Below are positions 17,794 through 53,184 of a stretch of 64,000 bases of DNA, in pieces (within the stretch, counting starts at the first letter, position 1; the number at the start of each line of letters is the position of its first letter). Origin of the DNA: Nitrospirota bacterium (GTDB taxonomy: Bacteria; Nitrospirota; Thermodesulfovibrionia; Thermodesulfovibrionales; UBA6898); NCBI GenBank assembly GCA_016214855.1, contig JACRMT010000006.1, positions 1 to 64,000 of the forward strand, in the 5' to 3' direction. The position numbers and the translations under genes were made by a program. Under the pieces are notes generated by a model that saw only the letters and a program-made list of their open reading frames with translations, had not been told where the DNA came from and ran no database searches.

Positions 17794-17795
17794 GA

Positions 17796-18999: not shown

Positions 19000-19031
19000 T
19001 TATTACTTATGCATAGATATGGAGGATCACA

Positions 19032-20042: not shown

Positions 20043-20050
20043 GAGGGGAA

Positions 20051-22051: not shown

Positions 22052-22068
22052 GGAGTTTGCTTGTTCTT

Positions 22069-33965: not shown

Positions 33966-34930
33966 AAAAAACACTATTAATTTTATTGGGCATTGGCGTG
34001 ATATTTGTGCTATGGAAACCATCAGTTTATGCATTGCCAGAAGCCAAAATAACAGTGCAGATTGTGGATGAAGAGAGTGTCCCGATGAGCAGTATTGATA
34101 TGGGAATCACGTTTAGTAGAGTGAAGAATAAGAATTTTGACGGCAAAAGTGACTCATCCGGCAAATTTACGGCATCGGCGGATACCGATGGAAGAGCCTC
34201 TTATGGAGCAAGCAAGCCGGGATATTACGATAGTCACGGTTCATTTGATTTCGTCAAAGTTGAGGGAAGTAAGTGGATACCTATGAGTTACAAATGGCTC
34301 CCATGGAATCCTGAAATCAAGCTGGTGCTCCGCAAGATAAGAAATCCGGTTCCCATGTATGCGCGTGATACTCAAATGTCAGGTCTTCGTCTTCCTGCAG
34401 CGGGCAAGGAAGCGGGGTTTGATCTGATGGAATATTCGTGGATGCCGCCCTATGGGAAGGGCAAACATGCAGACTTTATTTTTAAGCTGGATGAGACGTA
34501 TACGGGCGAAGGTGATTTCATAAGTACTCTCATTATTTCTTTCCCCAATAAATTCGACGGAATTCAGATGGTGAATGAAGATCTAAGGAATGGAAGCATT
34601 TTCAAGCTGCCGCGCTTTGCTCCCGAGGATGGTTATCAGTCTATATTTAAAAGAGTGATGCGCAAGATACCTGGAAAGCCATTAGAGCGTGATTTTGATA
34701 ATGGCAATAGTTACATCTTCAGAGTGCGCTCAGAAATGAAGGACAATAAGCTTATCCGAGCTATGTATGGAAAGATTCAGGGTGATATTGGTTTTGATCC
34801 AGCATTTCAAAAAACGATTGATCTCAGATTTACCTACTATCTAAACCCTGACTATACAAGAAATCTTGAGTATGATCGAACACGAAACCTGTTCGGAAAA
34901 TTGCCATCATTGGAGAGGGTGGATCAGTAG
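33962..34930 (+). CDS. exported protein of unknown function
   Basis: A 322-residue protein with a signal peptide (KKTLLILLGIGVIFVLWKPSVYA). The start is a GTG in a 4-nt GTGA overlap with the preceding stop. The first part after the signal resembles a carboxypeptidase-regulatory-like beta-sandwich (ITVQIVDEESVPMSSIDMGI then DSSGKFTASADTDGRASYGASKPGYY). The remaining 200 residues are beta-rich with a LDETYTGEGDFISTLIISFP segment and are unknown to me. Its coupling suggests it is delivered with, or matures, the upstream secreted protein. Confidence 0.75.
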   Translation: MKKTLLILLGIGVIFVLWKPSVYALPEAKITVQIVDEESVPMSSIDMGITFSRVKNKNFDGKSDSSGKFTASADTDGRASYGASKPGYYDSHGSFDFVKVEGSKWIPMSYKWLPWNPEIKLVLRKIRNPVPMYARDTQMSGLRLPAAGKEAGFDLMEYSWMPPYGKGKHADFIFKLDETYTGEGDFISTLIISFPNKFDGIQMVNEDLRNGSIFKLPRFAPEDGYQSIFKRVMRKIPGKPLERDFDNGNSYIFRVRSEMKDNKLIRAMYGKIQGDIGFDPAFQKTIDLRFTYYLNPDYTRNLEYDRTRNLFGKLPSLERVDQ

Positions 34931-34932
34931 AT

Positions 34933-35286
34933 ATGGCACTTTTCATTACATTCAACAGAAGCGCTGGTCTTATTATGTCAATACTCATGACTTCCAGCTT
35001 CGCTCATGCCGACACAGTCGACTCCATCCACCTCCTCAAAATCTCTTCTCAGGACGAGAGGGCGGTGGTGAAGATGGAAGACGGAACGAAGAAGATCATC
35101 AAGATAGGGGATGCCATAGGGAAGAACGGCAAGGTTATTGAAATCACTTCCGGCAGGGTGGTTATTGAGGAGCAGATGGATGGCGGCAGTGAGATAGTCA
35201 TCATACGACTCGAAGAGGGTAAGCAGTGGACAGAGCACATATCGCGCCTGCCGGATAGTAAGACGTTGCTGTACAAAGCAGAATAA
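34933..35286 (+). CDS. small exported protein with PilP/GspC-like beta domain
   Basis: A 117-residue protein 2 nt after the previous gene. A hydrophobic start (IMSILMTSSFAHA, cleavage near residue 26) is followed by SIHLLKISSQDERAVVKMEDGTKKIIKIGDAIGKNGKVIEI and GRVVIEEQ, the strand pattern of the HR/PDZ-like domain of GspC and PilP. Those domains contact the secretin in type II secretion and type IV pili. A stand-alone copy beside very large secreted proteins is suggestive but not proof of a secretion role. Confidence 0.65.
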   Translation: MALFITFNRSAGLIMSILMTSSFAHADTVDSIHLLKISSQDERAVVKMEDGTKKIIKIGDAIGKNGKVIEITSGRVVIEEQMDGGSEIVIIRLEEGKQWTEHISRLPDSKTLLYKAE

Positions 35287-35296
35287 AATACGTTAA

Positions 35297-35425
35297 ATGA
35301 GGGGACTGGGGACGATGATGGGGGGACAGAAACAACTGCTTTGTACGCTGATAGCGCTTAGTCTGCTGCTTTTTTCTCCGTCTTTAAGGCCATTAGGGGA
35401 CGTAGTTGAATCAGTTAGCTTATAG
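35297..35425 (+). pseudogene. truncated duplicate of the giant gene's leader
   Basis: An ATG at 35297 opens a 42-codon frame whose first 29 codons match the start of the giant gene at 35716 (one early difference, Arg for Gly). It then leaves the repeat and ends at TAG. It keeps a full signal-peptide hydrophobic core (CTLIALSLLLFSPS) but nothing behind it. Confidence 0.7.
35301..35383 (+). repeat. 83-bp direct repeat, left copy
   Basis: Identical over 83 bp to 35720-35802 (offset 419 bp); with one mismatch the match extends 5 bp further left. It includes three GGGGAC motifs near its left end and the sequence encoding the signal peptide of the giant protein. Confidence 0.97.
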
Positions 35426-35719
35426 AGGAAGGGTTGAAACAAAAGTTCATGCCAAGGCAAGCGCGACTTGATTTTCCTGGCACATTGCACCACGTAATAT
35501 GCCGAGGGATAGAGAAAAGAGATATAGTCACTGATGACAAAGACCGAGACAATTTTGTTGAGCGGATGGGCGGCATTGCAGAAAGGATAGGTAACTATGG
35601 GGTCAGACTTGCTTATTGACATTTGGGGTATAGCCAGACAGCATGATACGCAAATCGAGAATGGGTGAGCTGCCGGACGGGCAGTCGTTGTTAAACAAAA
35701 TGCAATAAAAATTGAATGG
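35384..35719. mobile_element. remnant insertion between the 83-bp repeats
   Basis: The 336-bp segment holds the transposase relic, a short hairpin (CTGCC 35670-35674, GGCAG 35680-35684) and otherwise no open frame. It separates the exported small protein gene from the giant gene. With the GGGGAC motifs at both flanks it looks like a decayed REP/RAYT unit. Confidence 0.65.
35449..35619 (+). pseudogene. relic of a REP-associated (IS200-like) tyrosine transposase
   Basis: The 56-residue frame starts MPRQARLDFPGTLHHVICRG and continues with EKRDIVTDDKDRDNFVERMG, the conserved N-terminus of RAYT / Y1-family transposases. It ends at TGA before the HUH motif and the catalytic Tyr, so it cannot be active. 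It lies between the two 83-bp direct repeats. Confidence 0.85.
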
Positions 35720-38700
35720 GGGGACTGGGGACGATGATGGGGGGACAGAAACAACTGCTTTGTACGCTGATAGCGCTTAGTCTGCTGCTTTTTTCTCCGT
35801 CTCTGTCTCATTCTGCTGACTTCATCGCTACAACTCTCGGCGACCAGGGTAACGTAACCGTGATGGAGGTCTCAGGCAACTACGACGCCAATAATCCTGA
35901 CGCCTCGACCAATACTGATCCGAGAAAGGTGATCGCAAAGGAATTCTACCGGCTTCATAAGGACGAATATGATTTCCTTGTCATCTTTTCCAATTTCGAC
36001 GTTAAAATGCCCGAGGTGGATGCAAGGGCATTCTATCTCCACGTAAAAAACGACACGCAGGGGATAGGCCAGCAGATATTCGACAATTCATGGCTCTTCG
36101 GCAGCAACGGCAAACTGCATGGCACCATAGACATGGGCAACATCACAGCGCTCATGACAGACCCTCTTGAGCCGACATTCGAAACCTCCCTCGATATCCT
36201 CAGCCACGAACTTATGCACAGGTGGGGCTCATATGTGAAGTTCATGACAGCGCAGGGCGTTGTCAGTTCTGCGCTTCTCGGCAAAGATCTGAGCCACTGG
36301 AGCTTCCTCCTTAATTCATACGGTTCTGTGCTTTACGGCAACCAGTGGCAGGACAATGGCAATGGCACATTTACATCAATAGCTGCCCGGAAATACTACA
36401 GCCCTCTTGACCTCTACCTCATGGGGTTTATCGATAAATCACAGGTGCCGCCCATGCTTCTGATCGATAACCCTGACATTGACCCAAAGCAGATGCCGGA
36501 GACAGGTATTACGATAACCGGTACCCCAACATATGTGACCATCGACCAGATCATTGCTGCAGAGGGCGAAAGGATACCGGGTCCAACAGAATCACAGAAA
36601 TCCTTTAAAACCGCCTTTATTTTCATAACAGCTCCGGGAACATTCACTGGCGATGAGCTGTATGGTATCGAGAACATCAGAAACGGCTGGGTCACGCGCT
36701 ATTCAGTGCTGAGTGACGGCAAGGGCATTATGCAGGTTTCATCAGCCCTCAGAGAAGATATCCCGACCAATCCCGGTATAACACTGCCACCTGTTACCCC
36801 AAGGACAGTTCCACCTAAGATCGAAGATGGTGTTGCGTGGCTTATGAATGACCAGAAGCCTGAGGGCCACTGGCTTGATATAACACAGACAGCGGAGAGG
36901 GACACTGCTGAGGCTGCTCGCTCCCTGAAGAATTTCGCGGTAGCGCAACAGAACTACAGCCTTGGACTTCAATGGCTGAACTCGATAGCTTCTGATAATA
37001 CTGATTATCTCTCACGAAAGATAGAGGCCATGGCGCAGGCAGGCCAGGATGTAACTATGCTGCTGCAGACCCTGATATCGCGGCAAAACCTTGATGGTGG
37101 GTGGGGGAGCAACAGGGAATATATGAGCAGCACTGCGGATACAGCATCTGTCCTGAAGGCTTTTTCCGTTGCCGGGTACGCAGACCCATCTGCTATTGGA
37201 AAGGCTGTCGCATACCTCAAGGCTAAGCAGAATCCTGATCAGGGATGGGGAAGTGACAATGTAAGCACTATCCAGTCAACGGCAAATGTGCTTACAGCTT
37301 TTAACAGGCTACAGTTATCAGCCGACAGTTATCAGCTAACAGACTATATCGCAAACGGCTTCGCTTGGCTACTTCAGAAGCAGAACCCTGACGGCGGGTT
37401 CGGCAACAGTCCGAGCACGATCTATGATACTGCCCATACTCTGCTGACGCTTGGTGTATTCGATATACCGATGGAGATTGCAAACAAGGCGGTGCAGTAT
37501 ATTCTCTCCTCCCAGTCAGAAGACGGCAGCTGGAACGAAAGCGCGTACCAGACGGCCCTTGCAGTTGAGGCAGTATGGAAGGCAACCGTAGACCCTGACC
37601 TATCGATAAAGAATACGGACATAACGTTCATACCGGCTTCTATTACAACTCTCCCCTCAAATATCGTGATCAATGCAGTTATAGGGAATACGGGAAGGAC
37701 AGGTGTGGCTGCTGCCAAGGTGGCGCTGTATGAAGGAGCAGTAGCAGAGGCAAACAAGATAGGCGAGCAGACCCTTGCATTCCCTGGCCAGTCATCGGTG
37801 AATGTGACGTTTAACGCAACGGCAAGGGACGGCAATGAGCACAGGTTCTATATTGTTGTTGATCCGGAAAATCTTATAAGAGAAGCGAATGAATCGAACA
37901 ATACAACACTGAAGATACTCTATCCTCTGGCAACGTATGATTTTGAGGTGCTCTCATCCGATTTATCCGTATCGGCGAACCCTGTCGATATATTCAAAGA
38001 CGTAAAAATAACCTCAAAAATAACAAATAAGGGCACGATGAATGCGTACAACGTGCAGATCAGGTATTTCATAGACGAGGCAGGCGCTCCCCTTGAGATA
38101 GGGACGTCAACAGTAAACATCCCGGCAGGCGCGACCATTACGAGTGAGATCATCTGGAAAACCAATAAGGCAGGCGTAAATCTTCCTTTGACTGTTTTGG
38201 CAGATCCGTTTAATACCTTTGTCGAGATCTTAAAGGAGAACAACAGGGCTGTTATGTATCTTACGGTGAATGGCTCGACAGAACCGAACCTTACGATATC
38301 GTATAAGGATATGGTGCTTACCCCTTCGCCTGCCAACGAAAGAGGGAGCGCGACTATCTCTGCCCTGGTCAAAAACGAAGGCTTTTCGACTGCAAATAAT
38401 ATAGCGGTGAATTTCTATAAGGGCGTGCCGGGTGTTGACGGAGTTCTTCTTGGTAGTCAGGTGATTCCCTCTCTCATCGCAGGAACGGGCAGTAGGGCAG
38501 CCATTGACTGGACGGATATCCAGGATGCAGGGGAGAGGATTATCTACGTCAAGGTAGATCCTTTGGGGCAGATAACAGAGATCAGCAAGGACGATAATGA
38601 CGCCTTTGTGCTGCTTGATATCCTGAGCCTGCCTGATCTTGCGATATCGACAAATTCCATTAAATTCAATCCTGCTGCTCCGAAGGATGGCGATATTGTC

Positions 38701-41700
38701 GCTATCGTGGTCACGGTCAAAAACCTGGGCATGCAGAGCGCTTCTAATGTTTCTGTAAAGGCAGTTGACGGGGATACGGTCATCGGCACAAAAACTATAT
38801 CAGTTATCGCAGGGAATGCCCAGGGGATAGTTTTATTCTCATATGACACAGCCGGCAAGAGCGGCGCTCATCAGATAACTGTAGCTGTTGACCCTGATAA
38901 TGCAATCGTGGAGCAGAGTGACGATAACAATAGCGCGACAAGGACTTTCGGCGTCCAGAATGCGAACCTATGGCTGACAGAACCGATCTTCTCACCGAAC
39001 GGAGATGGTATCAAGGACAGCACGCAACTCTTCTTCAGGCTGGATGTCCAGCAGACAGTAAGAGTGATCGTAGTCAACAAAAAAAGCGAAACAGTCAGGA
39101 CGTTCAGCGGAATTGAGCTTACAGATATAACAGGCGGGAATATTACCTGGGATGGTCTTAATGACATCGGGACAGTTGTAGCTGACGGTCAATATCAGAT
39201 AAAGGTGGTGGATTTAAACAATAACGTGCTCGGCAGTTTGCTGGTTATTCTGGACAACAACAGATCGCCCTTAACAGAGGCAATTGGGACAAAGTATCTC
39301 CTGAATACTAATCTGACATGCAACTTACCCCTCTCATTATATGAAAATTGGCAATGGCTTTCTGATGATGGCGGTATCATATTTTCCTTAAGCGGCACTG
39401 AGCATAATGTCCCGCAATATCCATCTGGAATTTATTTTATGTCTCCGACAGGAGATGATATTACAAGTATCTTGCCGATGACGCTGTCAGAAAACGATTT
39501 TGCTGATTTGTCCAGTTGGAAATTATCGCCTGATAAAACAAAAATAGCATTCTTGTCCTGGAAATATAATGCTAAGGAAAATATATATGCTCAGGAATTA
39601 TGGACATCAGATATTGAAGGAAAAAACCTGAGATTATTAATTCAGGTCGACCAGGCTGTTAATGATGAGGAAATATTTGAGATAAAATGGTCTCCAGACG
39701 GTAAATATCTTTTGTACAATATTGGCCCTGTTTATAAGTTGGGTTATAGAGCTTATGAACTCTGGATTATAAATATCGAAAATAAGTCTAATATTAAAAT
39801 TGATTCGGGATATTTTACGTTAACCCTTATTTCAGCGGAATGGTCACCTGATGGAACAGAAATAGCCTATTTAGCTTCTCCAACATATGAGGATGACGGT
39901 AATATGGCTACAGATGCGTTAAAAATATCTGATCTGCAGGGTAATAAGAAAAATATTTATCTGTTCAATAACTATACGTGGTGGGAGCCGATCCATTGGC
40001 TTGAAAACCAGAAAATATTAGTGGAACATCCGTCAATGAAACCTCAATTATGGCTTTTTGATGCCAGTGGAAACGGCAATCATATTAAAGTGGCGGACGA
40101 TTATGATGTCCTTTTTGTAGCGCCTGATAGGCAATCATTGGCGTTTCATACAACGGTTAGCGGTGGGCTTCTTACTGGGGGAATGATAAATATTTCTAAT
40201 ATGGATGGAAATATCACATATCAATATCAGAATTCGGATACTGATTATGTTTGGGATATAAATACAATGGGCGTTACATGGGCTCCGGATTCACAGGAAT
40301 TGGTTTTTTCTGAAATGGGTATTAAGAGTATCTGGGAATATTCGAATAGGCGGCATTATCTGACTGTTCTAAATATGAAAAGCAAGGCTACGGAATCGTT
40401 TGATCTTAGTCTAAAGGTAAATGATATCAACAGCTATATTAATTTATTTAACTGGCTTCCAGATAATGCAGCGATTTTGGCGTCACAAAACTATCTTTAT
40501 AATTACCCGGGCGATCTTTATGTGATTAATTCTGAAACCGGGGCATACACTCATCTTCTTTCAAATATGCAATTGCCCTGGGATTTAGATGCAGACAATA
40601 ATCAAGATGATTATAAATCTATATCACCACTCGGACAAATTATTGCCTATTACCCGAATAGGTATCAGGCGAGCGGATGTTATTACGACTATTATAAATC
40701 TAGCGACCTTTGGGGAATGAGTTCTTTGCTGAACCTTACAGCTGACCTGAGCGCAGTAAAGAACAAATCATACGTAATTCTGAAGGGGACAGCCGCAGAC
40801 CTGAATTTTGAAGGCTATATGCTCGAATATGCTGATGCCAAGACCCCTACTGTCTGGAACCTTGTTGGGCCGCCTTCTGATCTGCCTGTTATCAACAATG
40901 TGTTTACAACATGGGTGCCTCCGTATGAGGGTGTTTTCTTTGTGCGGCTGACAGTCTGGGATAAGGCAGGCAACATTAAACGTGAACAGAAGAGGGTCTC
41001 ATGGGGATTGTCATCAAGTATCACGAATCTTTATAAATCGACTGAGATATTTTCGCCAAACGGTGATGGAACAAAAGATACGGTTTCGCTGAATTACACG
41101 GTGTTGGAACCCATTCATCTGGAGTTCACTATTTATGATGAAAACAACAAGCTCATCAGGACATTCCTTAAAGACCATACAACTCCCTGCGCAGACAACA
41201 TAATCTGGGATGGCCGCGATAACACCGGCGACATCGTGCCTGACGGCAAATATACGATAAAAGTGTTCGATTACGAGTTCTTTTTGGAAGTGGATAATAC
41301 GCCGCCTGATCTGGATCTGGAACTGAGTGAGATTAAGCAGTATCAGAATAATTCGATGATGGGACCGGACGGACCGGACCTGATGACATTGGTCGTGCTC
41401 ATGAGAGGACTTGCTTATGACAAGAATCTTAAGTATTGGATAATTGAGTATGGGGAAGGAGATAATCCGCTAACGTGGTATGAATACAGCCGTGGAATGG
41501 ATCTGCTTGCAGCAAAAGATAACAATGGAAACGTTATCACTGATCCGATAGGGAATGCTGAAATAGCACAATATCACAATCAGGAAATCGCATCACTTGC
41601 GGGTCAAAGGTTCAGGATCACTGTTGAGGATCATGCAGGTAATAAGCGCACAGTTCAGTCGAACATGCTGGAGGAGCGCATGCTTCTGTATTTCCATTCA

Positions 41701-44700
41701 TGGGGCGCATTATATACGTCTGATTATGAATATTTCAAGGTGTATAGCTCAGGAGAATATCCGTCTTTAGAGCTGCCCAAAGAGCACATTCTGCAGGGAC
41801 TTGAGACTATAAGCGTTCCGATAACAATTATTAATCTCCAGTATTGGAGCGATTTGCAATGGCATGATGCATCACAACAGGACCACACCTCAGACGGTGA
41901 TATCTATATTGTATGGGATAGAGGCAAGGTTTTGTCTGAAATCGGAGCAGTTAGACTAAGGGCTATTGACATGTTCGGACAAGAGCACTATTCGAATACC
42001 GTAATGACGAAGTCACAGTTCACTATTGACCGCTGCGCTCCTCCGACAAGTGCTGCCCGGAATTATCTCTTTGAAAAATTGACACTGTTAAAGATGCAGA
42101 TACAAAGTGCTGATGATATACGCTTTGCTCAATGGACAGATTATCACATTGCCCAATCCCCCGATGTCCCGACAGGTACGTTTTCCCTTGCGCCACTGCC
42201 TGATCTTCGGACCGGGGCTGAATATCACTTCAGGATGATTGGAATAGGCGAAAGCGGCAGAGAATATATTGGTGAAGAGAACTCATCAGTCTGTGATCAG
42301 CCGAAAACACCTGAACTGAAACTGAACCTTTACGTAAAAGACTATGCAGAGGCCGATTGCGGACTGCTGTCTGATGGAAAAAGTGGACTTTCCTCAATGC
42401 TGTCAACAAAAAACCTGGCAGCCCCGATCACACTAAAAACCCTGAGCTACTATATCCAAATCAACGGTGCCCTTCAGCTCCTGCGTCAATTCGACCTGAC
42501 AAAAGAAAGCTGGGGCGCTGTCGGGATTGAAGCATCGGCCATGGCGGAAGGTAGCTATCCTGTAAGCGCTGTCCTGGACTATTTTGATACCCATGACTAT
42601 AAAGATAAAGAGCTGACAACTGAGGGCACCCTTATTGTCGATCGTACTCTGCCGGAAGCCAGGATAACATATCCGGACAAGTCTCAAACCCTCTGCCCTG
42701 TAAAACGCACGGATGCAAGGGGCGACTGGTTTGCGCTGCCTATCGAAGGCATTGCCCTGGACAACATTGCTGTAAAGAGGTATGAACTCTACTACGGATT
42801 TGGCGAAGCGCCTGAAACATGGAACCCTGCGCTGACACGGGTTCTGACAAAGGATGGTATAGAGCTTGTTTTGATCAAAGGGAAGGATGTAAAAGGCAAG
42901 CTTGGCGACTGGTATGTTGAAGGTATTCATGGAACAGTTTCCCTGAAACTGAAAGTGATCGATATTGCAGGCAATGTTACTTGCTACACGACAAGTTTCA
43001 CGGTCAAGGAAGTCATTGATTTCTCCAAGCCCATTGTAGACAAGCCTCTCTTTTCACCCAATAGGGACGGGCTCTTTGATGACGTTAATGTTACATACGA
43101 AATTAACGAATATGCCACGGTCGACCTTAAAGTTTATCCTCTTGCGCTGATAGACAATGATTTTGTGCTTGGTCAGTCGCCTGTGGGGACTATTGCTTCA
43201 GGAATAAGCCATCTCGGTGGAGAGGGATATGCAGCCTGGGAGGGCTTGACTGATGCCGGCATAGCACTGGATGGACATTATGGCATTGCAGTAATTGCAA
43301 CCGATGCCTGCGGAAATACGAGAACTCGCTGGACAGAGGTGGGGGTGGACAATGCACCGCCCTTAACCCTCATCAGTTATCCTGTGCCCGGAGATATTAT
43401 CGGCAATATTATCGAGGTCAAGGGGACTGTATCAGATGACAACTTCAGGAACTATCAACTTGAAGCAGCTCCAGAAGGCAGCACAAGCGAATGGCGTCTT
43501 ATTGCAAACAATGCAAATCCTGTTATGAATGATATCCTCGGAAAATGGAATACATACGGATTAAACGGCATCTGGACAGTTCGACTGACCGGATATGATG
43601 CGGTCGGCAACAAGAACGAGACTTATGTTGATATTGATCTTGGGGAGCGCAAGGACCTTATTAAAGATCTTGATATCAGCCCAAAGCATTTTTCGCCGAA
43701 CAATGACGGGAAACGGGATGTCGCCACAATTAAATATGAACTATCTTATGCAAGTAATGTAAAGATTGAGATACTTAATTCCGCCGGGACAGCTAAAAAG
43801 ACCTATACAACCATCACCCCATCTTTCGGCTCTTATACGTACATCTGGGACGGGACTGATGCTGTCGGTCTAACAGTTCCTGACGGCACATATGTCGTGA
43901 AGCTGACTGCCGAGCTTACTGCGAATCCGTCGGTCAACCAGTTCGAGGCGATCACGGTCGTTGTTGATACAAAAGCGCCGGTGATTGATATAAAGCAGCC
44001 GGTTTCCGGCTTCTATATCAAGACAACAGATATTTCAGTAAATGGTTCTCTGTCTGATCCGAATATCATGGAATACAGCATGACAGTGTTGTCCGACACA
44101 GGCACAGAGATGCTTGATCAGGGAAATCAGGACAGAATAGCTTACCATTTCGGCATGCTTTCCAGCCCTGCCGAAGGAGCCTATACGCTTAACATCAAGG
44201 CAAAGGACCTTGCCGAAAACTCAGTTGAGGAAAATATACCGTTTGTTATTGACAGAACGCCGCCCAAGGTAACCCTTGACACACCAAAGTCAGGTGAGTA
44301 TTTCGGCCATAATAAGGCCGAAATACTCATTACCGGCAGCATCGAGGAAAAGAACCTCGAAACATTTGAGCTTCGATATGCGTTGGGCGATACACCTGTG
44401 CAATGGACAGAACTGCTGAGAGGCACTGCTGTGCCGACCATGCCTCAGCTATTCACCTGGAAAGTCGGCAGGAACGACAACATGCCGGACGGCAATTATA
44501 CGTTGTCGCTTTTTGCGAAGGACAAGGCAGGACTGACAGGAGAGTCTAAAGTTAAAGTCACGGTAGATAACACTGCGCCGGAAACGGTTATTTCATCACC
44601 AATAGATGGCAGTTACATAAAATCAGCTCTGGATATTAAAGGCACTGCCTTCGATGCCAATCTCGATAAATGTACCGTTGAATTCTCAGAAGGCAACTGC

Positions 44701-47700
44701 CAGAGTGCCTTTAAATGGTCTACTCTCATGAGTTCGACGAAATCCGTTAAGGACGGTGTGTTGGCCAGAATGCAAATCCTTCCTGCAGAAGGCGACTACT
44801 GTATCAAGGTGGCCGCAATCGACAAGCTTGATAATAGATCAGAGGCCCGTGCAAAGATCACGATCGACACCCAGCCGCCTGCTGCCCCTTCGCTCTCAGG
44901 CAGGATTGAAAACAGAGCTGATATGCGAGTCACCTGGGCTGCCAATACAGAGCCTGACATTGCAGGATATGACCTTTACCGGGAAGGCAAGAAGCTTAAT
45001 ACAACGCTTCTTGCAGGACTTTCCTTCCTTGATGCTGATCTGACTGAAGGCACGTATACGTATATGCTTAAGGCCATTGACTATGCAGGCAATGAGAGCA
45101 AGCCTTCAAACGATGTGACGATCAAAATCGACCTGACCGGCCCCAATACACGTGTGCGGACGCCTCAGGATGGCGCACGGGTAAGCGGGCTCGTGGATAT
45201 CAAGGGCACGGCATACAGCGCAGATGATTTCAAGGAATATAGGATGTCAATAGGCAAGGGGCAGTCGCCTTCAGCATGGATGCTCCTCAGGACTTCTCCT
45301 GTTCCGGAGCCCTACGGCATTCTTGCGCAGTGGGACACAGCCGGGCTTACCGAAGACGAGCAATATACCATAAAGCTCGAAGCTGACGATATCAACGGCA
45401 ATACATCCGGCCACCAGATCACGGTGACGATTGACAACAGACCGCCTGCCGTGCCGTTGCTGCTTGCCGCCGTGCCGTCCGTTTCAGATGTTCAAGTGAC
45501 CTGGAAAGCCAATACAGAGCAGGACCTGGCCGGATATTTCCTCTACAGGAACGACCAGCTCGCAAATGTGCAGGGTATTGTTATCGGGAACCTGAAGCCG
45601 TATCTGATCGCAGCTACCGTTTATTCAGACAAGGGGCTTCCTGACGGGACCTATAAATACTCCCTGCTTGCAATGGACAGCGCCGGCAATCTGAGCGACC
45701 AGTCAAATAGCATTGAAGTGACGATAGATACGCGGCCGCCGCATGCTGCAATAGTGGACCCCGCAAATATGTCAAAGTTCGACAAGCAGATCCTTCTGAA
45801 GGCTGAATCTCTGGATATTGATATAGCGGGCATACAGTTCCAATACAGGAAGGCCTCTGATCAGGTGTGGATAACCCTCGGCGGCCCCATATCGCGGCAG
45901 CCTTATATTACCTTCCTTGATCCAATCGCCGTCGGCCTGACTGTTGGCGAATACCATTTCAGGGCGGTTGCCACGGACAAAGGCGGAAAGACCGACCCGA
46001 CTCCTGAATATGTTACGCTCACCTATTCTGACGTGACAGCTCCAGACTTGCCCATGGGGTTGAAGGCCCTGACTAAAGGCACTGATGTTACCCTTACATG
46101 GATGTCCAATCCTGCGGCCGATCTCGATGGGTACAACATATACAGAACATCAGGCAAAACACGGGCTAAGATAAATGCAGCTGTTATAAAAGAATCAACA
46201 TATCCGGACGCCAATCTTGGTGATGGCTCATATGACTATGAAGTTACCTCAATCGATACCTCCGGCAACGAAAGCAAACAGTCCAACAGTGTATCTGCGA
46301 GGATTTATGCTCCACTGTTGGTCCAACCCTACACACCTACAGGCAAGATGGCCCTGTCTGTCATCGGCAGAAACGCAGCAGCCAATGCAACAGTGCAGAT
46401 ATTTGCCGAGACTGTTTCCGGTCCTGAGTCGAGGGGCGCGACCAGTTCCGATGCTTCAGGAAACTTTGCTTTAGATTTCAGTCTTGCGCTCGGAGAAAAC
46501 AAGGTAACGTCAACATCAACGGACGCAGCCGGCAATATAAGCCGAGTTTCTGATATGGTGGTTGTCGTGTACAATGAGCCGCCATTGCTGCCAAAGGGAC
46601 TTCAGTCCGTTGTAAATGGCCACGATATTAATCTAACATGGGTACCCAATACTGAGGTCGACCTTGTGGGATATAACATCTTCAGAGGAGATGAAAAGCT
46701 CAATTCGCCGGTATCCATTATCTCAGGGAATGCAACATCATCATCCTACTATTATTACTATCAGCCTTCAAATGCCTTTGACGGGGATCCCAACTCATAC
46801 TGGCTTGACCTCAGTTACGGTACGTTTAGCCCTGTATGGCTTCAGATTGATTTGCCATCTCCTGAGTTGATAACCCATATGGAAATCAATTGGCTGGGTG
46901 ATGTATATGCGGGCAGCGATTATGAAGTTCAGACCTGGTCGGGGTATGCATGGATCACGCTGAAAAAGGTTGCCGGGAATACTGCGATGGTCAACAGCTT
47001 TGATTTCAAACCGTCTTATAGGACCGACAAGATAAGGATCTCTATAACCGGCACCATCAATCAGGACTACTACAAGCAGGTCGGCATATCCGAAATATCG
47101 ATCCTCAGAGACAACCTCCTGACAGAGGCCTCTTATAATGACCTTAATCTCAGCGATGAGAAATACGCATACTCGATTACTGCTGTGGATTATTACGGCT
47201 TTGAAAGCCTGCCTTCTGAGGAGGTAAAAGCAGAGGTTGGCGATGTAATACCTCCTGCTGCCCCTATAAGTCTGACAGCGGCGACCACAGGACAAGAGAT
47301 CAAACTTAGCTGGTCTGCGAATGCGGAGTCTGACCTTGCCGGATACAATCTCTACGGACTTGAGGCTCAAGCGTGGATCAGGCAAAACAGCTCTCTGATA
47401 ACTGACACAGCGTATAGGGACGCGGGACTGCCAAATGGTACATATACCTATAAGGTAACTGCTGTTGACTCAATCGGCAATGAAAGTCTGCCTTCCAATG
47501 AGGCGTCAGCTGATGTGTATGTTGCTGATACGGTTGCTCCGGCAGTACCTGTGCTCTTCTTCCCGACAATTGCAGGGCTTCCGATCATATTGCAGAAAGA
47601 CAGGACCGATGTCATGGGGTTTGCCGAGCCAGGCTCCTCTGTCACGCTCTATAAGTCCGGCATCTCAGTCGCCACGACATCAGCCTTAGAGGATGATGAT

Positions 47701-50700
47701 ATCAGCACTATCGCAATCGATTACGCTTGGGGCGATGCGACGCTTTCACCTGACGGCACGACCATTGCGTATATGGACAGCAATTATTCATTGTGGGTCA
47801 GGGATCTTGCATCCGGGACCGAAAAACAAGTTGCCCAATATGGCAACTCTCCGGTTTGGTCTTCTGATGGAAGTAAAATTGCATTTCAATACAATGAAGA
47901 CAGGAACGGCCAACAGAATTATCTTATTGGGATTTACGATATCAGGGCGGAAGCAGTTGCGCCACTTACCGGTGCAACTGACGATCCCTATATCGATGAA
48001 TACTACCCTTCCTGGTCATCGGATGGAAGCAGGATCGCTTTCATCAGCTATCAGGGCGGCTCTTATAATATTTGGTTTAAGGACTTCATGGCGGGAGATG
48101 TTAAGCAGCTGACACATGCCGGATATACCGTAGTCCTGAAGCTCTCGCCGGATGGCAAGAGACTTGCCTATATTGACGGTGACAATTATTACCTCTATGT
48201 AATGGATATCGCAAGCGGCGAGAGCATCCTTATTGATGATAAGGCGACCGCTGACTCTCTTGACTGGTCTCCTGACAGCAGAGCTCTTTTGTTTAGCTCA
48301 TCGGTGAATGGAAATGTTGACCTCTACCGTCACGATTTCCCTATGCATGTGAGGGCTCAGCTCACCAGTAATGCCGAATATGAGTTCGCTGCACAATGGT
48401 CTCCCGAGGGAAAAAGCATCTTCTTCGGACAGTACGACGGTAATTGGAATATGTCCTTAAGGATCATCTCGGCCGACGCCCCTCATGACGGCAGACTTCT
48501 CTCTACTGAGCCCGATCTTTATAATCTATCCTGGTTGAAATCAGGCGCCATAACTTTTGCAGACGGATCTATTTTGTTTTTTGTGCATCCCAAAGGGTAT
48601 TTCATGTACAGCGCTGTTGCTCTGGAGGCAGGGGAAAACCTTTTCACAGCGATAGCAACTGACTCCTCTGGCAACTCGGGTCAGCCCTCTGATGAAATCT
48701 CAGTTACATTTGAGACAAGCCAACTGCCTGACATCGAGACCCTGGCCGATGATATCTACCTATATCCTGCCGTCCCTGTTGACGGCCAGCAGCTCTTGAT
48801 GAATATCGTGGTCTGGAATAGGGGACAGACTGAGGCAATAAATGTAGTAGCAGACGTATATATCCAGGATGCATTCGGAAACCTGGAACGCATTAAATCT
48901 GTGAGCATCCCTCTTCTTTCACCCGGCTCAGGTGAGATAATCAGTATTTCGTGGGCTACCTTGGGCAGGAATGGCGCGAACAAACTGTTTGTAGTTCTTG
49001 ATCCAGCTAATATGCTAACCGAACAGAGAGAGGATAATAATATTGGAGAAAAAGAGTTCTATATTGTCACAGGCGAAGGCGTTTCTCTTTCCACGGTCTT
49101 AAGCGCAGCGCAGCTAATGCATGGTCAGGATACAGGCATAGACATAACCATCGTAAACAACGGGATTGCAAGAGAGGGTGTCCTCAATGTGGCTATCGAG
49201 GACGAGAATGGATATTCTGTGGCACTCCTGGACTCCAGAAACATTCATCTTGCTTATGGTTCTCAGGAACATTATGTATATACATGGAACACGGGTTCCA
49301 CTTATGCAGGTATGTACAGAGTGCGTGCTGCAGTGGGGGACGCCTCGGGTATCATAGCGGAGAAGATCGTGCCGTTTACCATACTGCCTGAGATCGCCAT
49401 TGAAGCGTCAGTTGTAACTGACAAGGCCCTGTACGGTCCGCATGAAAATGTTCAGGCAACCTTTATTCTCAGAAACAATGCTCATAATTACATTATCCCC
49501 GACTTGAAAATAAATAACCTGATTATGGACGCAGCCGGGACAGTGCTGTTTGCGGAGGAAAAGGATGTCAGAAACATGCTTTCTGGTATCACGGTTTCAT
49601 TCAGTGCGATATGGGATACAGGGCTGATTAAGCCGGGCAATTACTATGCAGCTATCAATATATATGACAACGGTCAGATGATCCTCAGCAAGACAGCACC
49701 ATTCATCATTGAGTCAGTGGTGACTGTTTCCGGATCGTTACTCGTTTCTCCGTCGATTGTTCTGCTCGGAAATACCGTGCATATGGATTATGCAGTTCTG
49801 AACGCTGGTAATAGTGACGCAATGGGTTTGACAATCAGGGTTTTAGTCGAAGACCCCGAAACGCAAGCGGTCCTGAAGACATTTGAAAATATGGTTGACC
49901 TTGGCATCAACAGCAGCACCTTAGGACAGTTCATCCTTTCCACACAGGGGCTGGGCTTAAAGAACTATACAGCGGCACTTCAATACGTATATCAAGGTGA
50001 TACGAGGTCTTTGGCAAAATCGCTATTCTCCGTGAGAGACGGTATGCCACCCGCAGTAACATTGATCTCACCCTCATCAGGCAGTCTTTTTAACTCCGCG
50101 ATTGATATCACGGCAATTGCTACAGATGATGCGTCAGGTGTTGATTGGGTCGAATTCCGGATAGACAACGGTTCGTGGAAACTGCTGCCGATAGCAGATC
50201 CATCTTCCGGAAGGTTTGCGACAACATGGTTGCCTGCGCGGGCTGATGAAGGAACCCATACCATTGACGTCAGAGCAACGGATAAATCAGGCAATGCTAG
50301 TCCGATAAGCTCAACGCTTCTCACTATCGACACAACAGCACCTGTATTGATTGTATCGACCCTTTCGGATGGCAGTTGGACAAAAAACGAGTTGTTAAAT
50401 GTAGCAGGAATAGTGACGGACAACATTGGTATTCAACAGGTTTCGATCAACGATACAGTAGTACCGCTAAACGTAGACAACAGCTTCAGCTATCCTATAA
50501 CTACGCAGGATGGGGAGAACGTAATTACCGTGACGGCAACAGATCTTGCAGGCAACCAGGCAATTGATACAAGGACGATCAACTTTGACCGGAGCGTGCC
50601 TGTGATAACGATAATCACTCCGGCCGACAATATAAAGACAATGCTTTTGCCGGTTGACCTCTCGGGCACTGTGGACGAACAGTCTTCAGTTGCCGTCGCG

Positions 50701-53184
50701 ATCAACGGATCTTTTCCTGTTCCAGCGATTATGGAAGGCAATAACTTCAGTCTGTCGGTCATTCCGGATTATGGGATTAATACGATAGAAGCGACGGCAA
50801 CAGATCGCGCCGGCAATACCTCAACAGCGAAGAGAACCATACTGTTTGACGATAGAAGTCCCTCACTTGCAGTCATTGATCCGACCCAGGACACAAAGAC
50901 GAACCAGACCGCAATGACGCTGAGAGGAAAAGTAGAGGATCTGACAGAAATCACTGTCAGGGTTACAATGGACGGCAACACATATGTACCTGCTATGGCT
51001 AATGGGACGTTCGAATTGCCGATTACATTTACTGCGGAAAAAGTATACCAGATCTACGTTACGGCAACTGATGAAGTCGGGAATGAGACAGCAGTGCAGA
51101 GAAACGTCTTATATGACATTACGGCTCCCATACTGACTGTAGACTCTGTGATAAGTCCTACGAGTATGGTCAGCCAGGTAGTGACCGGTCTTGTTGAGGC
51201 AGGAGCAATTGTCAGCGTTTCATGTCCCACAGCAAACATTGGTGTCGTCACGTATCCGACGCCTGAAACATGGGCAGTAACACTGCTGGATATGGAGGAG
51301 GGAACCCATATCATCGAGGTTACCGCCACTGACGAGGTCAGCAATATAAGCCAGACTGTTACGGCTGAGATAATTGTTGATCTGACATCTCCCTTAGTGA
51401 CTATTGCAGCACCTGCAAATGGAACTGACCATGTAGGCAAGGTGGACATTATTGCAATAGTCACGGATACCGGTGCTGGCGTAGGAAGCGTAGAATATCA
51501 AATTGATAGCGGTGATTGGAAACTCCTGTCTATGGCTGATCCTGCTGTGCATATGTATTCGGCAGTCTGGCTTCCTGTCCTGTCTGACGAAGGGACACAT
51601 ATGATCAACATCAGGGCCTCTGACAGGCTCGGCTTCATGAGCAACCCTGTGTCCGTTACTTTTGAAGTGAAATCTGATCAGAATTCAGACATCGAGATTG
51701 AAAAGACGATTCCGAATGTCAGAAATGTGCTGCTCTGGATCAACGACGGCTGCCATGAAAGCAATGAAGAATTGACCGGCTCGCAATATGGGACTGGAAA
51801 GAGCTTTCTATCGGGATATCCCGACGGCAACGGAGAAGGCGACGGATGCCGTGAAGAGAATATGGGAAGACTGAGCGCAGATACTTCTATCTCAAATGAA
51901 GAGGACACAGGCGACGACGAAGATTCGTCAGAGGGCGAGCATGAATGCAGAAAGTGCCTCAGGAGTGACCTTGTCGAAAGAGTCCTTGGTGAGTCAGCCA
52001 CGAGCCATTCCATAGTTTATTCTGCGAAGGACTTTCAGCACGAGTTGAGAAATCCGTATTACACAGACATTTTGATCCTCGGCAATCGGTATCCGCTGGA
52101 AGATCACTACTGGGAAGAACTCAGGGAAAAGGTCAATGCCGGTGTCGGGCTGGTATCCTCTCTCTGGATGAGGCGCGGAACTGATGAGCAGAATGAAACA
52201 TATGATCCCATACTGGGGATCCGGTATAAAGGAAGGCTGCCCGGGAGAACTCATAAGATCCGCACTGTCCAGAGCCCCATTACCGGCGCAGACAGAATTG
52301 ATTCAAAGGGCAAAGCGGAGCGGATCGAAACCGGACAGGGGACTGCAATCGCCGGCTGGCTTGAAACCGATGAATGCGAGAAAGGACGTCGCAGATCTGA
52401 TTACCAGATTAATGGCTGTATTGACGACGGGCAAAAAATGTCCTGCGAAAGCCCTGCCATTGTTTTAAACAAGTATGGAAAGGGGAGGGCGGTATTCATT
52501 GCCTTTGATATAGGAGAAACTCTGAATGACAAAACCTATTCGCAGATGACAGCCCTTATAAAGAACTCTCTGACATACGCCCACAGCGTCTCTGACATCA
52601 ACACCTTCGGACCGGGAAGTCTTGTCCCTGTAGAGATCAGCCTCAGTAGCCTCGGTAGCGCTTCCGACCTTAAAGTGACGGAGTCGTATTCTACGGCACT
52701 GAAGATATATGATCCGACAACAGAGGAGTGGATTACAGCAAACCCGTGGATTAATCGGCTGAAACTCGGGGTGAGCGAAACTGCGTCGATTCTTTATTAC
52801 GCCCTATTGCCCGACAGAGGGGGGATCTACACGCTGAAGACGGATATAAGTTATTTGGAAAATGGCATCTATAATCCATACAAGAGTATTTCCAATGATC
52901 TTGTCGTGGCTAACGACTTTAGCGCCTCGCTGTCCGACGTATTATGTGCTCTAGACGAGCTGGACTCAAGAAACAGCCAGGAAGTGAAGAACGCCAGGAG
53001 AATACTTCAGCTCATGCTCCTGCGTGACGCAAACACGAGGCAGACTATTGAGGCGAATATACACGGCGTCTTATCGGCTATACATCTAATTCTGGGGGTT
53101 AATTCGGACACATTCCGTGTCAGGACCATGATGGATGAACTCCTTAAGGGTCTGGAAAGCAGATACTATTACCTTGGCAATTAA
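35716..53184 (+). CDS. 5822-residue secreted multidomain mosaic protein
   Basis: A single 17.5-kb frame. The signal peptide begins at 35716 or, more likely, at the second ATG pair (35734/35737, just after GGGG), ending near HSADF. Domains in order: putative zinc peptidase with HELMHRW (164-170) and HWSFL (194); prenyltransferase-like alpha toroid with QxxDGGWG repeats (371-625); four CARDB Ig domains (629-1082); FlgD-Ig (1085-1170, FSPNGDG); beta-propeller (about 1190-1660); FlgD-Ig modules at 1779, 2446 and 2659; Ig-like and fibronectin III modules (2755-3900), with a discoidin domain at 3667-3799; a second propeller (about 4000-4290); CARDB-like and Ig modules (4336-5319); an acidic linker; an amidotransferase-like domain (about 5425-5625) and a helical tail. 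No sorting motif or membrane anchor is seen at the C-terminus. Probable cell-surface or extracellular adhesin/processing protein; function unknown. Confidence 0.85.
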   Translation: MGGLGTMMGGQKQLLCTLIALSLLLFSPSLSHSADFIATTLGDQGNVTVMEVSGNYDANNPDASTNTDPRKVIAKEFYRLHKDEYDFLVIFSNFDVKMPEVDARAFYLHVKNDTQGIGQQIFDNSWLFGSNGKLHGTIDMGNITALMTDPLEPTFETSLDILSHELMHRWGSYVKFMTAQGVVSSALLGKDLSHWSFLLNSYGSVLYGNQWQDNGNGTFTSIAARKYYSPLDLYLMGFIDKSQVPPMLLIDNPDIDPKQMPETGITITGTPTYVTIDQIIAAEGERIPGPTESQKSFKTAFIFITAPGTFTGDELYGIENIRNGWVTRYSVLSDGKGIMQVSSALREDIPTNPGITLPPVTPRTVPPKIEDGVAWLMNDQKPEGHWLDITQTAERDTAEAARSLKNFAVAQQNYSLGLQWLNSIASDNTDYLSRKIEAMAQAGQDVTMLLQTLISRQNLDGGWGSNREYMSSTADTASVLKAFSVAGYADPSAIGKAVAYLKAKQNPDQGWGSDNVSTIQSTANVLTAFNRLQLSADSYQLTDYIANGFAWLLQKQNPDGGFGNSPSTIYDTAHTLLTLGVFDIPMEIANKAVQYILSSQSEDGSWNESAYQTALAVEAVWKATVDPDLSIKNTDITFIPASITTLPSNIVINAVIGNTGRTGVAAAKVALYEGAVAEANKIGEQTLAFPGQSSVNVTFNATARDGNEHRFYIVVDPENLIREANESNNTTLKILYPLATYDFEVLSSDLSVSANPVDIFKDVKITSKITNKGTMNAYNVQIRYFIDEAGAPLEIGTSTVNIPAGATITSEIIWKTNKAGVNLPLTVLADPFNTFVEILKENNRAVMYLTVNGSTEPNLTISYKDMVLTPSPANERGSATISALVKNEGFSTANNIAVNFYKGVPGVDGVLLGSQVIPSLIAGTGSRAAIDWTDIQDAGERIIYVKVDPLGQITEISKDDNDAFVLLDILSLPDLAISTNSIKFNPAAPKDGDIVAIVVTVKNLGMQSASNVSVKAVDGDTVIGTKTISVIAGNAQGIVLFSYDTAGKSGAHQITVAVDPDNAIVEQSDDNNSATRTFGVQNANLWLTEPIFSPNGDGIKDSTQLFFRLDVQQTVRVIVVNKKSETVRTFSGIELTDITGGNITWDGLNDIGTVVADGQYQIKVVDLNNNVLGSLLVILDNNRSPLTEAIGTKYLLNTNLTCNLPLSLYENWQWLSDDGGIIFSLSGTEHNVPQYPSGIYFMSPTGDDITSILPMTLSENDFADLSSWKLSPDKTKIAFLSWKYNAKENIYAQELWTSDIEGKNLRLLIQVDQAVNDEEIFEIKWSPDGKYLLYNIGPVYKLGYRAYELWIINIENKSNIKIDSGYFTLTLISAEWSPDGTEIAYLASPTYEDDGNMATDALKISDLQGNKKNIYLFNNYTWWEPIHWLENQKILVEHPSMKPQLWLFDASGNGNHIKVADDYDVLFVAPDRQSLAFHTTVSGGLLTGGMINISNMDGNITYQYQNSDTDYVWDINTMGVTWAPDSQELVFSEMGIKSIWEYSNRRHYLTVLNMKSKATESFDLSLKVNDINSYINLFNWLPDNAAILASQNYLYNYPGDLYVINSETGAYTHLLSNMQLPWDLDADNNQDDYKSISPLGQIIAYYPNRYQASGCYYDYYKSSDLWGMSSLLNLTADLSAVKNKSYVILKGTAADLNFEGYMLEYADAKTPTVWNLVGPPSDLPVINNVFTTWVPPYEGVFFVRLTVWDKAGNIKREQKRVSWGLSSSITNLYKSTEIFSPNGDGTKDTVSLNYTVLEPIHLEFTIYDENNKLIRTFLKDHTTPCADNIIWDGRDNTGDIVPDGKYTIKVFDYEFFLEVDNTPPDLDLELSEIKQYQNNSMMGPDGPDLMTLVVLMRGLAYDKNLKYWIIEYGEGDNPLTWYEYSRGMDLLAAKDNNGNVITDPIGNAEIAQYHNQEIASLAGQRFRITVEDHAGNKRTVQSNMLEERMLLYFHSWGALYTSDYEYFKVYSSGEYPSLELPKEHILQGLETISVPITIINLQYWSDLQWHDASQQDHTSDGDIYIVWDRGKVLSEIGAVRLRAIDMFGQEHYSNTVMTKSQFTIDRCAPPTSAARNYLFEKLTLLKMQIQSADDIRFAQWTDYHIAQSPDVPTGTFSLAPLPDLRTGAEYHFRMIGIGESGREYIGEENSSVCDQPKTPELKLNLYVKDYAEADCGLLSDGKSGLSSMLSTKNLAAPITLKTLSYYIQINGALQLLRQFDLTKESWGAVGIEASAMAEGSYPVSAVLDYFDTHDYKDKELTTEGTLIVDRTLPEARITYPDKSQTLCPVKRTDARGDWFALPIEGIALDNIAVKRYELYYGFGEAPETWNPALTRVLTKDGIELVLIKGKDVKGKLGDWYVEGIHGTVSLKLKVIDIAGNVTCYTTSFTVKEVIDFSKPIVDKPLFSPNRDGLFDDVNVTYEINEYATVDLKVYPLALIDNDFVLGQSPVGTIASGISHLGGEGYAAWEGLTDAGIALDGHYGIAVIATDACGNTRTRWTEVGVDNAPPLTLISYPVPGDIIGNIIEVKGTVSDDNFRNYQLEAAPEGSTSEWRLIANNANPVMNDILGKWNTYGLNGIWTVRLTGYDAVGNKNETYVDIDLGERKDLIKDLDISPKHFSPNNDGKRDVATIKYELSYASNVKIEILNSAGTAKKTYTTITPSFGSYTYIWDGTDAVGLTVPDGTYVVKLTAELTANPSVNQFEAITVVVDTKAPVIDIKQPVSGFYIKTTDISVNGSLSDPNIMEYSMTVLSDTGTEMLDQGNQDRIAYHFGMLSSPAEGAYTLNIKAKDLAENSVEENIPFVIDRTPPKVTLDTPKSGEYFGHNKAEILITGSIEEKNLETFELRYALGDTPVQWTELLRGTAVPTMPQLFTWKVGRNDNMPDGNYTLSLFAKDKAGLTGESKVKVTVDNTAPETVISSPIDGSYIKSALDIKGTAFDANLDKCTVEFSEGNCQSAFKWSTLMSSTKSVKDGVLARMQILPAEGDYCIKVAAIDKLDNRSEARAKITIDTQPPAAPSLSGRIENRADMRVTWAANTEPDIAGYDLYREGKKLNTTLLAGLSFLDADLTEGTYTYMLKAIDYAGNESKPSNDVTIKIDLTGPNTRVRTPQDGARVSGLVDIKGTAYSADDFKEYRMSIGKGQSPSAWMLLRTSPVPEPYGILAQWDTAGLTEDEQYTIKLEADDINGNTSGHQITVTIDNRPPAVPLLLAAVPSVSDVQVTWKANTEQDLAGYFLYRNDQLANVQGIVIGNLKPYLIAATVYSDKGLPDGTYKYSLLAMDSAGNLSDQSNSIEVTIDTRPPHAAIVDPANMSKFDKQILLKAESLDIDIAGIQFQYRKASDQVWITLGGPISRQPYITFLDPIAVGLTVGEYHFRAVATDKGGKTDPTPEYVTLTYSDVTAPDLPMGLKALTKGTDVTLTWMSNPAADLDGYNIYRTSGKTRAKINAAVIKESTYPDANLGDGSYDYEVTSIDTSGNESKQSNSVSARIYAPLLVQPYTPTGKMALSVIGRNAAANATVQIFAETVSGPESRGATSSDASGNFALDFSLALGENKVTSTSTDAAGNISRVSDMVVVVYNEPPLLPKGLQSVVNGHDINLTWVPNTEVDLVGYNIFRGDEKLNSPVSIISGNATSSSYYYYYQPSNAFDGDPNSYWLDLSYGTFSPVWLQIDLPSPELITHMEINWLGDVYAGSDYEVQTWSGYAWITLKKVAGNTAMVNSFDFKPSYRTDKIRISITGTINQDYYKQVGISEISILRDNLLTEASYNDLNLSDEKYAYSITAVDYYGFESLPSEEVKAEVGDVIPPAAPISLTAATTGQEIKLSWSANAESDLAGYNLYGLEAQAWIRQNSSLITDTAYRDAGLPNGTYTYKVTAVDSIGNESLPSNEASADVYVADTVAPAVPVLFFPTIAGLPIILQKDRTDVMGFAEPGSSVTLYKSGISVATTSALEDDDISTIAIDYAWGDATLSPDGTTIAYMDSNYSLWVRDLASGTEKQVAQYGNSPVWSSDGSKIAFQYNEDRNGQQNYLIGIYDIRAEAVAPLTGATDDPYIDEYYPSWSSDGSRIAFISYQGGSYNIWFKDFMAGDVKQLTHAGYTVVLKLSPDGKRLAYIDGDNYYLYVMDIASGESILIDDKATADSLDWSPDSRALLFSSSVNGNVDLYRHDFPMHVRAQLTSNAEYEFAAQWSPEGKSIFFGQYDGNWNMSLRIISADAPHDGRLLSTEPDLYNLSWLKSGAITFADGSILFFVHPKGYFMYSAVALEAGENLFTAIATDSSGNSGQPSDEISVTFETSQLPDIETLADDIYLYPAVPVDGQQLLMNIVVWNRGQTEAINVVADVYIQDAFGNLERIKSVSIPLLSPGSGEIISISWATLGRNGANKLFVVLDPANMLTEQREDNNIGEKEFYIVTGEGVSLSTVLSAAQLMHGQDTGIDITIVNNGIAREGVLNVAIEDENGYSVALLDSRNIHLAYGSQEHYVYTWNTGSTYAGMYRVRAAVGDASGIIAEKIVPFTILPEIAIEASVVTDKALYGPHENVQATFILRNNAHNYIIPDLKINNLIMDAAGTVLFAEEKDVRNMLSGITVSFSAIWDTGLIKPGNYYAAINIYDNGQMILSKTAPFIIESVVTVSGSLLVSPSIVLLGNTVHMDYAVLNAGNSDAMGLTIRVLVEDPETQAVLKTFENMVDLGINSSTLGQFILSTQGLGLKNYTAALQYVYQGDTRSLAKSLFSVRDGMPPAVTLISPSSGSLFNSAIDITAIATDDASGVDWVEFRIDNGSWKLLPIADPSSGRFATTWLPARADEGTHTIDVRATDKSGNASPISSTLLTIDTTAPVLIVSTLSDGSWTKNELLNVAGIVTDNIGIQQVSINDTVVPLNVDNSFSYPITTQDGENVITVTATDLAGNQAIDTRTINFDRSVPVITIITPADNIKTMLLPVDLSGTVDEQSSVAVAINGSFPVPAIMEGNNFSLSVIPDYGINTIEATATDRAGNTSTAKRTILFDDRSPSLAVIDPTQDTKTNQTAMTLRGKVEDLTEITVRVTMDGNTYVPAMANGTFELPITFTAEKVYQIYVTATDEVGNETAVQRNVLYDITAPILTVDSVISPTSMVSQVVTGLVEAGAIVSVSCPTANIGVVTYPTPETWAVTLLDMEEGTHIIEVTATDEVSNISQTVTAEIIVDLTSPLVTIAAPANGTDHVGKVDIIAIVTDTGAGVGSVEYQIDSGDWKLLSMADPAVHMYSAVWLPVLSDEGTHMINIRASDRLGFMSNPVSVTFEVKSDQNSDIEIEKTIPNVRNVLLWINDGCHESNEELTGSQYGTGKSFLSGYPDGNGEGDGCREENMGRLSADTSISNEEDTGDDEDSSEGEHECRKCLRSDLVERVLGESATSHSIVYSAKDFQHELRNPYYTDILILGNRYPLEDHYWEELREKVNAGVGLVSSLWMRRGTDEQNETYDPILGIRYKGRLPGRTHKIRTVQSPITGADRIDSKGKAERIETGQGTAIAGWLETDECEKGRRRSDYQINGCIDDGQKMSCESPAIVLNKYGKGRAVFIAFDIGETLNDKTYSQMTALIKNSLTYAHSVSDINTFGPGSLVPVEISLSSLGSASDLKVTESYSTALKIYDPTTEEWITANPWINRLKLGVSETASILYYALLPDRGGIYTLKTDISYLENGIYNPYKSISNDLVVANDFSASLSDVLCALDELDSRNSQEVKNARRILQLMLLRDANTRQTIEANIHGVLSAIHLILGVNSDTFRVRTMMDELLKGLESRYYYLGN
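35720..35802 (+). repeat. 83-bp direct repeat, right copy
   Basis: Right copy of the repeat at 35301-35383. It forms the first codons of the giant gene, so the open frame depends on it for its secretion signal. Confidence 0.97.
37308..37345 (+). repeat. TCAGC-type short repeats in the giant gene
   Basis: ACAGTTATCAGC occurs twice, 15 nt apart, translated as LQLSADSYQLTD between two helical toroid repeats; same family as 28525-28579. Confidence 0.6.
44295..44329. repeat. 14-bp perfect inverted repeat with 7-nt loop inside the giant gene
   Basis: TGAGTATTTCGGCC (44295-44308), loop ATAATAA, GGCCGAAATACTCA (44316-44329). It encodes GEYFGHNKAEIL at a strand turn of an Ig-like module. The stem would be very stable in the mRNA. 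Confidence 0.95.

Follow-up and report, generated by a model that had tools for sequence, protein, structure and literature searches.

The TIR-associated tyrosine transposases (TIRYTs) form subclass 2.1 of the TnpA-Y1 transposases, and the ends of their elements often have the sequence GGGGWSAS in common, according to the descriptions available (PMC3733652, PMC6006769). Elements of the IS200/IS605 type are described as producing no larger target duplications (PMC2817692, in part). Tandem clusters of REP and REPIN sequences that include flanking DNA have also been described (PMC3116915, PMC3733652, each in part).

The locus considered here lies in a window of 64,000 nucleotides, the whole stretch of DNA analyzed, from a Nitrospirota bacterium whose genome (G000) comprises 3,300,430 bases in 23 contigs. 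In this window, the leader of a giant exported-protein gene is repeated on both sides of a transposase relic. Homologous import or gene conversion that leaves a duplicated junction is general bacterial recombination. The locus resembles such a product in that it contains a short tract of different affinity between conserved blocks, with an orphan duplicate at one edge. It differs in having one illegitimate joint, which is situated at a transposon relic, and in that no donor, intermediate or pre-event state was found among the 176 genomes of the order.

As in the TIRYTs of subclass 2.1, so far as these are described, the pieces of the insert come from elements with a Y1 domain, terminal inverted repeats starting with GGGG and, in the intact relative, a weak match to a DnaA-type helix-turn-helix that stays below the cut-off (PMC3733652, PMC6006769). 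In contrast to those elements, the copy in the window is a truncated fusion of two of them that is immobile alone, and the leader repeat is no part of an element. The tandem duplications that occur at TIRYT ends in this order are similar to the REP/REPIN clusters because the repeated unit holds flanking DNA and, mostly, the tip of an end linked to a Y1 transposase. They differ in that many TIRYT units reach just 1-17 nt into the tip and are situated at left junctions of complete elements, and the leader repeat itself is not of such a form (PMC3116915, PMC3733652, as far as these accounts extend). In a non-exhaustive search of the literature, the left-junction form was not found for TIRYTs in the descriptions given by these two sources.

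The Leader Repeat

The direct repeat formed by 35293-35383 and 35712-35802 is 91 nt long and 98% identical, with a spacing of 419 nt. Both of its 2 mismatches fall within the first 8 nt, and 35301-35383 is exact over 83 nt. This is far beyond chance, since the runner-up direct repeat within 34000-37500 is only 21 nt long at 76% identity. An earlier reading made from the sequence only had reported that the start of the giant gene is repeated exactly over 83 nt at a distance of 419 nt upstream, and the comparison confirms this within the slightly longer repeat. The same reading described the upstream copy as a frame of 42 codons with a signal-peptide core. A frame of that length does begin at 35297 and stops after the hydrophobic core, but the start is better placed further downstream. 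In G003, a genome of the same genus, ACG is found where the window has the ATG at 35297, while the ATGATG behind the G-rich ribosome-binding block is retained. For this reason, the ATGATG at 35315/35318 (35734/35737 in copy 2) is the better-supported candidate start, and the orphan frame of copy 1 would then comprise 36 codons. The features of the locus are collected in Table 1.

Table 1. Features of the leader repeat and its surroundings, in window coordinates.
Feature	Position	Strand	Basis
Small exported-protein gene, 117 aa, mosaic: 5' part of resident type, body 35026-35286 G003-like	34933..35286	+	Identities; fourfold sites
Copy 1: ribosome-binding block and signal-peptide leader, orphan	35293..35383	+	Repeat; ATGATG 35315/35318 conserved in G003
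First relic part: left terminal repeat and 5' part of TIRYT-type Y1 transposase gene	35393..35587	+	Alignment to L084 1500-1694
Second-family left tip (35599-35623) and spacer	35597..35642	+	10 own-genome tip matches; intact transposase at G000:C8
Resembles start of second-family transposase gene	35643..35664	+	Alignment; sequences behind other tips
Putative scrap of small-gene 3' end, stop codon 35704-35706	35665..35711	+	25/38 coding identities; anchored score
Copy 2: ribosome-binding block and leader of giant gene, probable ancestral junction	35712..35802	+	Repeat; G003 comparison
Giant exported-protein gene, 5822 aa, ORF annotated from 35716 (to 53184)	35734..53184	+	Start by G003 comparison; homologous N-terminal part in relatives

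A search of the own genome with 35293-35802 (E ≤ 0.001) gave 14 matches and no third copy of the leader; outside the window all matches lay in the middle part of the query and none in the repeat. When the start of the giant gene was searched as protein, copy 1 was the only second leader found. Among 285 fetched loci, which included the other copies of this element, the leader is present only here in the window and in front of the G003 giant gene. The two leaders are homologous but not identical, with 84.5% identity over 71 nt and, in a second alignment measure, 65/81 positions.

The Small Gene and the Giant Gene

The small exported-protein gene upstream of copy 1 has a mosaic structure, with a body identical to that of G003 at 251/261 positions and to that of G007 at 191/261. 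Its 5' part matches G007 at 62/83 positions and has no meaningful alignment with G003. The start of the giant gene has 79.8% identity to G003 (blastn), and four long syntenic stretches shared with the same genome (window 6180-25073) have 86, 84, 79, and 76%. Fourfold sites differ from G003 at 3/31 positions in the small gene vs. 23/59 in the giant-gene start (Fisher p = 0.003). The body of the small gene is thus nearer to G003 than its neighbors are, which indicates a more recent common history with G003. The affinity switches near codon 30 of the small gene and at the ribosome-binding block, and the deviating tract is bounded by break points that lie in conserved sequence.

A second, incomplete piece of such a gene may be present in front of copy 2. 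The 47 nt before this copy align in frame with the end of the small gene, with the stop codon in place and 25 of the 38 coding positions identical. When the 70 nt before copy 2 are aligned outward from the repeat with the 70 nt before copy 1, the score is 11, a value reached by none of 3000 random 70-mers from the window and by 1 of 3000 shuffles; the unanchored alignment is weak (19/1000 shuffles). In the blastn comparison of the window with G003, the match begins at 35670 and continues into the giant gene. The assignment of this scrap as the end of an old small gene is thus statistically supported, but the scrap is short. Because it matches the 3' end of the small gene, copy 2 would retain its ancestral neighbors on both sides, and the duplication appears to have been broader than the leader alone. 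The sequence-only reading had offered, as one possibility, a tandem duplication that was later split. This comes close to the evidence, with the difference that the end of the small gene in front also seems to have been duplicated. Matches to the scrap in G013 and G075 lie within unrelated sequence, look like chance and were rejected.

The protein of the giant gene possesses CARDB, FlgD-like and other Ig-like domains, F5/8 type C and PD40 repeats, and a toroid that is squalene-cyclase-like. A possible zinc-protease motif, HELMH, occurs in the N-terminal part.

The Transposase Relic

The insert between the two leaders is a fusion of the 5' parts of two TIRYT-type transposons, truncated and incapable of moving alone. 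The first part can be aligned over 195 nt, with no gaps, to the start of an intact element in G003, and further copies of this family are present in the own genome at C3 and C4. Between copy 1 and this part, the joint at 35384-35392 is neither repeat nor alignable relic. The tip of the second family has 10 matches in the own genome, and at G000:C8 the transposase behind the tip is intact. The resemblance of 35643-35664 to the start of the second-family transposase gene is only suggestive, as the stretch is short. The segment 35640-35664 had been considered as the tail of a small gene, but this was dropped in favor of the resemblance to the second transposase, and the small-gene scrap is therefore placed at 35665-35711. 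The truncated RAYT gene that the sequence-only reading recognized between the copies is, then, a truncated Y1 (IS200-like) transposase gene, but a compound one made of pieces of two elements.

The intact elements L084, in G003, and L085, in G009, have terminal inverted repeats beginning GGGGACGTTGATGAA. They encode proteins of 323 and 320 aa, respectively, each with a Y1 transposase domain (PF01797, Y1_Tnp; 45 and 44.5 bits, cut-off 23). For the C-terminal helix-turn-helix extension of subclass 2.1, the DnaA-type domain Bac_DnaA_C scores 18.4 and 16.7 bits in the same proteins, under the cut-off of 31.5; this part is absent from the truncated relic. The second-family end GGGGTCAG fits GGGGWSAS fully and the first-family end GGGGACGT fits it at 6/8 positions; for both families, the relic in the window is without a right end. 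Intact elements terminate at GGGGACG.

Relatives and the Paralogous Cluster

The usual order in relatives is a small exported-protein gene followed directly by the giant gene, without the relic, as in G003, G007, G100, G032, and G054. In G003 the small gene, the leader and the start of the giant gene are directly joined. This adjacency is not universal, however, and other sequence precedes the giant gene in G042 and in G009, a genome of another genus of the family. In G009 it is TIRYT debris (L070:9125-9260, G009:C46), and a relic of the small gene with stop codons lies elsewhere in the genome, on C57. The first 495 residues of the giant gene have matches in 26 of 101 genomes (E ≤ 0.001), some of which match only the second part, which is more widespread. 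Only one of the 176 genomes of the order, G003, has a close match to the small gene together with the leader; it is similar to the window but is not the donor. The G003 giant gene matches for about 208 codons and then gives way to unrelated sequence (L067 ~4375-4400, G003:C40), a further rearrangement at that locus.

The own genome also contains a decayed paralogous cluster at G000:C4, 343-362 kb (L065, minus strand). Its proteins have identities to those of the window of 80% for a transglutaminase-like gene, 48% for a 1574-aa gene, and 49% for a 322-aa gene. Behind these genes there is no complete small gene, and instead a related TIRYT fusion and a fragment of a giant gene are found. The C4 relic is 88% identical to the window relic over 118 nt and 94% over 48 nt. 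It has the same joint between the 5' part of the first element and the tip of the second, together with an extension behind the tip that is common to the window and C4 and is present at no other match in the own genome. In long blastn blocks the C4 cluster and the window are at most 83% identical, and one 53-nt piece of the giant gene reaches 91%. As related relics are common to both clusters and have diverged, the relic must be old, while the exactness of the repeat over 83 nt indicates that the repeat is young.

Tandem Duplications at TIRYT Junctions

Head-to-tail duplications of the flank, or of the flank and the first nucleotides of the tip, occur at many left junctions of TIRYT-type Y1 transposons. 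When units of 12 nt or more were counted, tandem duplications were found at 10/85 tips vs. 13/4000 random positions, part of the latter being runs of N or lying beside tips. An earlier test with units from 8 nt gave 13/78 tips vs. 14/600 positions. A control with GGGG[AT]C words gave 11/468, and by eye 8 of these 11 lay inside arrays next to TIRYT tips. Matches occurred in 58 of 101 genomes, from which 60 further regions were picked by hand, mostly for longer reading frames, and the sample is therefore non-random. Among Y1 transposase genes, a tandem duplication was present upstream of 14/59 and downstream of 6/59, and in 3/136 flanks of 68 control ORFs. The 59 genes were obtained from 98 locus ids with filters of our own making (an ORF of at least 190 aa, an HUH-and-tyrosine pattern, and 250-260 nt on each side), the rest being dropped, and the 68 control ORFs were kept from 118. 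For the first family, the stutter occurs at 5/11 left vs. 0/7 right ends, a difference that is not significant alone (p = 0.10), and at 1 of 15 unclassed ends.

Examples of these duplications are 13 bp at G000:C3, 126 bp at G000:C4, 13 bp at G009:C93, and 18-21 bp at G100:C5. Upstream of the G009 giant gene, a 19-bp unit of flank and tip occurs four to five times, and duplications of 12-126 bp were seen at L002, L065, L085, L090, L093, L106, L161, L129, and L070, among others. At L104 6309, on the minus strand, a 23-bp unit within a TIRYT-like terminal repeat is duplicated in tandem.

Repeats that span an element are another matter. A word of at least 12 nt common to the left and right flanks was found for 2/59 Y1 transposase genes vs. 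64/2942 mismatched pairs. This agrees with the view of the sequence-only reading that IS200-like elements do not make target duplications of 83 bp, and a long target duplication made by the element was rejected as unsupported on the same count. Because both copies of a stutter lie outside the element and repeats across elements are not enriched, the stutter alone fails to explain the leader repeat.

Origin of the Duplicated Leader

Any history of the locus has to account for the repeat, the compound relic, the related relic in the paralogous cluster, the element-free relative, and the mosaic small gene, all of which are directly observed. Based on this evidence, it is probable that the leader was duplicated by recombination at a conserved small-gene/giant-gene junction that held an old, dead TIRYT relic, and that the leader belongs to the giant gene and was not borne by the element. 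Copy 2, flanked by the scrap to the left and by the giant gene to the right, would represent the ancestral junction, and copy 1 would adjoin the end of a remade small gene. A G003-like small-gene body would have entered the resident small gene by recombination, with break points near codon 30 and at the G-rich ribosome-binding block, and an illegitimate joint would have connected the native leader to the relic on its left side. The outcome would be a complete small gene, a useless leader frame of 36-42 codons, the relic, the scrap of the older small gene, and an intact giant gene. Homologous replacement of the small-gene body with one illegitimate joint would be the most economical history. 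In the inferred order of events, the duplication of the junction may have preceded the import or taken place in one event with it; copy 1 may have arisen together with the import of the small gene.

The element itself might instead have made the duplication, if the insertion of a TIRYT, or replication over its end, had copied about 140 nt of flank, comprising scrap and leader, to both sides, and a G003-like body had later replaced that of the small gene. Such a replacement would account for the difference between the scrap and the small gene now in place, despite the identical leaders. Tandem duplications at left junctions are indeed common, at tips as well as upstream of Y1 transposase genes, and one of 126 bp lies at the related C4 relic. 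Nevertheless, in these tandem cases the two copies are external to the element, there is no enrichment of direct repeats that span it, and an old and truncated relic stands beside an exact repeat, so that this history has a modest chance at best. There is a smaller chance still that, in this order, TIRYT-type Y1 transposons habitually duplicate the flank on their left when they insert or are replicated and that the leader repeat is an extreme product of this junction stutter, with one copied flank beyond the element. The fusion of two paralogous clusters or alleles by deletion or unequal exchange, one intact (small gene and leader) and the other with the relic in its small gene (relic, scrap, leader, and giant gene), could draw on the decayed cluster at C4 with its related relic in the equivalent place. 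An identity over 83 nt would not be expected for the leaders of diverged clusters, however, and apart from the 53-nt piece of the giant gene, C4 does not exceed 83% in long blocks; this origin is improbable.

A chimeric join of the sequences of two strains is suggested by the number of contigs and by the position of the join between stretches of different affinity. Against this, the whole arrangement occupies about 500 bp inside a contig of 96,515 bases, the spacing of the repeat could be bridged by ordinary reads, and the relic has an independent relative at C4. An assembly artefact is thus very unlikely. Even less credible is the proposal, raised in the sequence-only reading, that the leader makes up part of the mobile unit, which would have supplied the giant gene with its export signal. 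A gap of 9 nt separates the end of copy 1 from the point at which the relic can first be aligned, and the leader contains GGGGAC words similar to the element tip. However, the search for further copies of the 83-bp repeat beside other genes found none in the 3.3 Mb of the genome, the leader is missing at all other element loci among those fetched, and intact elements end at GGGGACG. The comparison with a homologue lacking the element also counts against a mobile leader, since G003 possesses a homologous, non-identical leader and a giant gene, with no element between the small gene and the leader.

In conclusion, the duplicated leader is most likely a local recombination scar; its kind is known, though its history is somewhat unusual. 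If the TIRYT elements did copy their flanks in the manner considered above, they would generate flank duplications, unlike the IS200/IS605 elements as these are described (PMC2817692). Duplication at the left junction may have a bearing on the insertion or replication of this little-studied subclass of Y1 transposases, and this can be tested in many genomes. For the giant gene, the tempting idea of an export signal donated by a transposon is removed, and in its place stands a concrete, probable history of recombination in a variable cluster of exported proteins.
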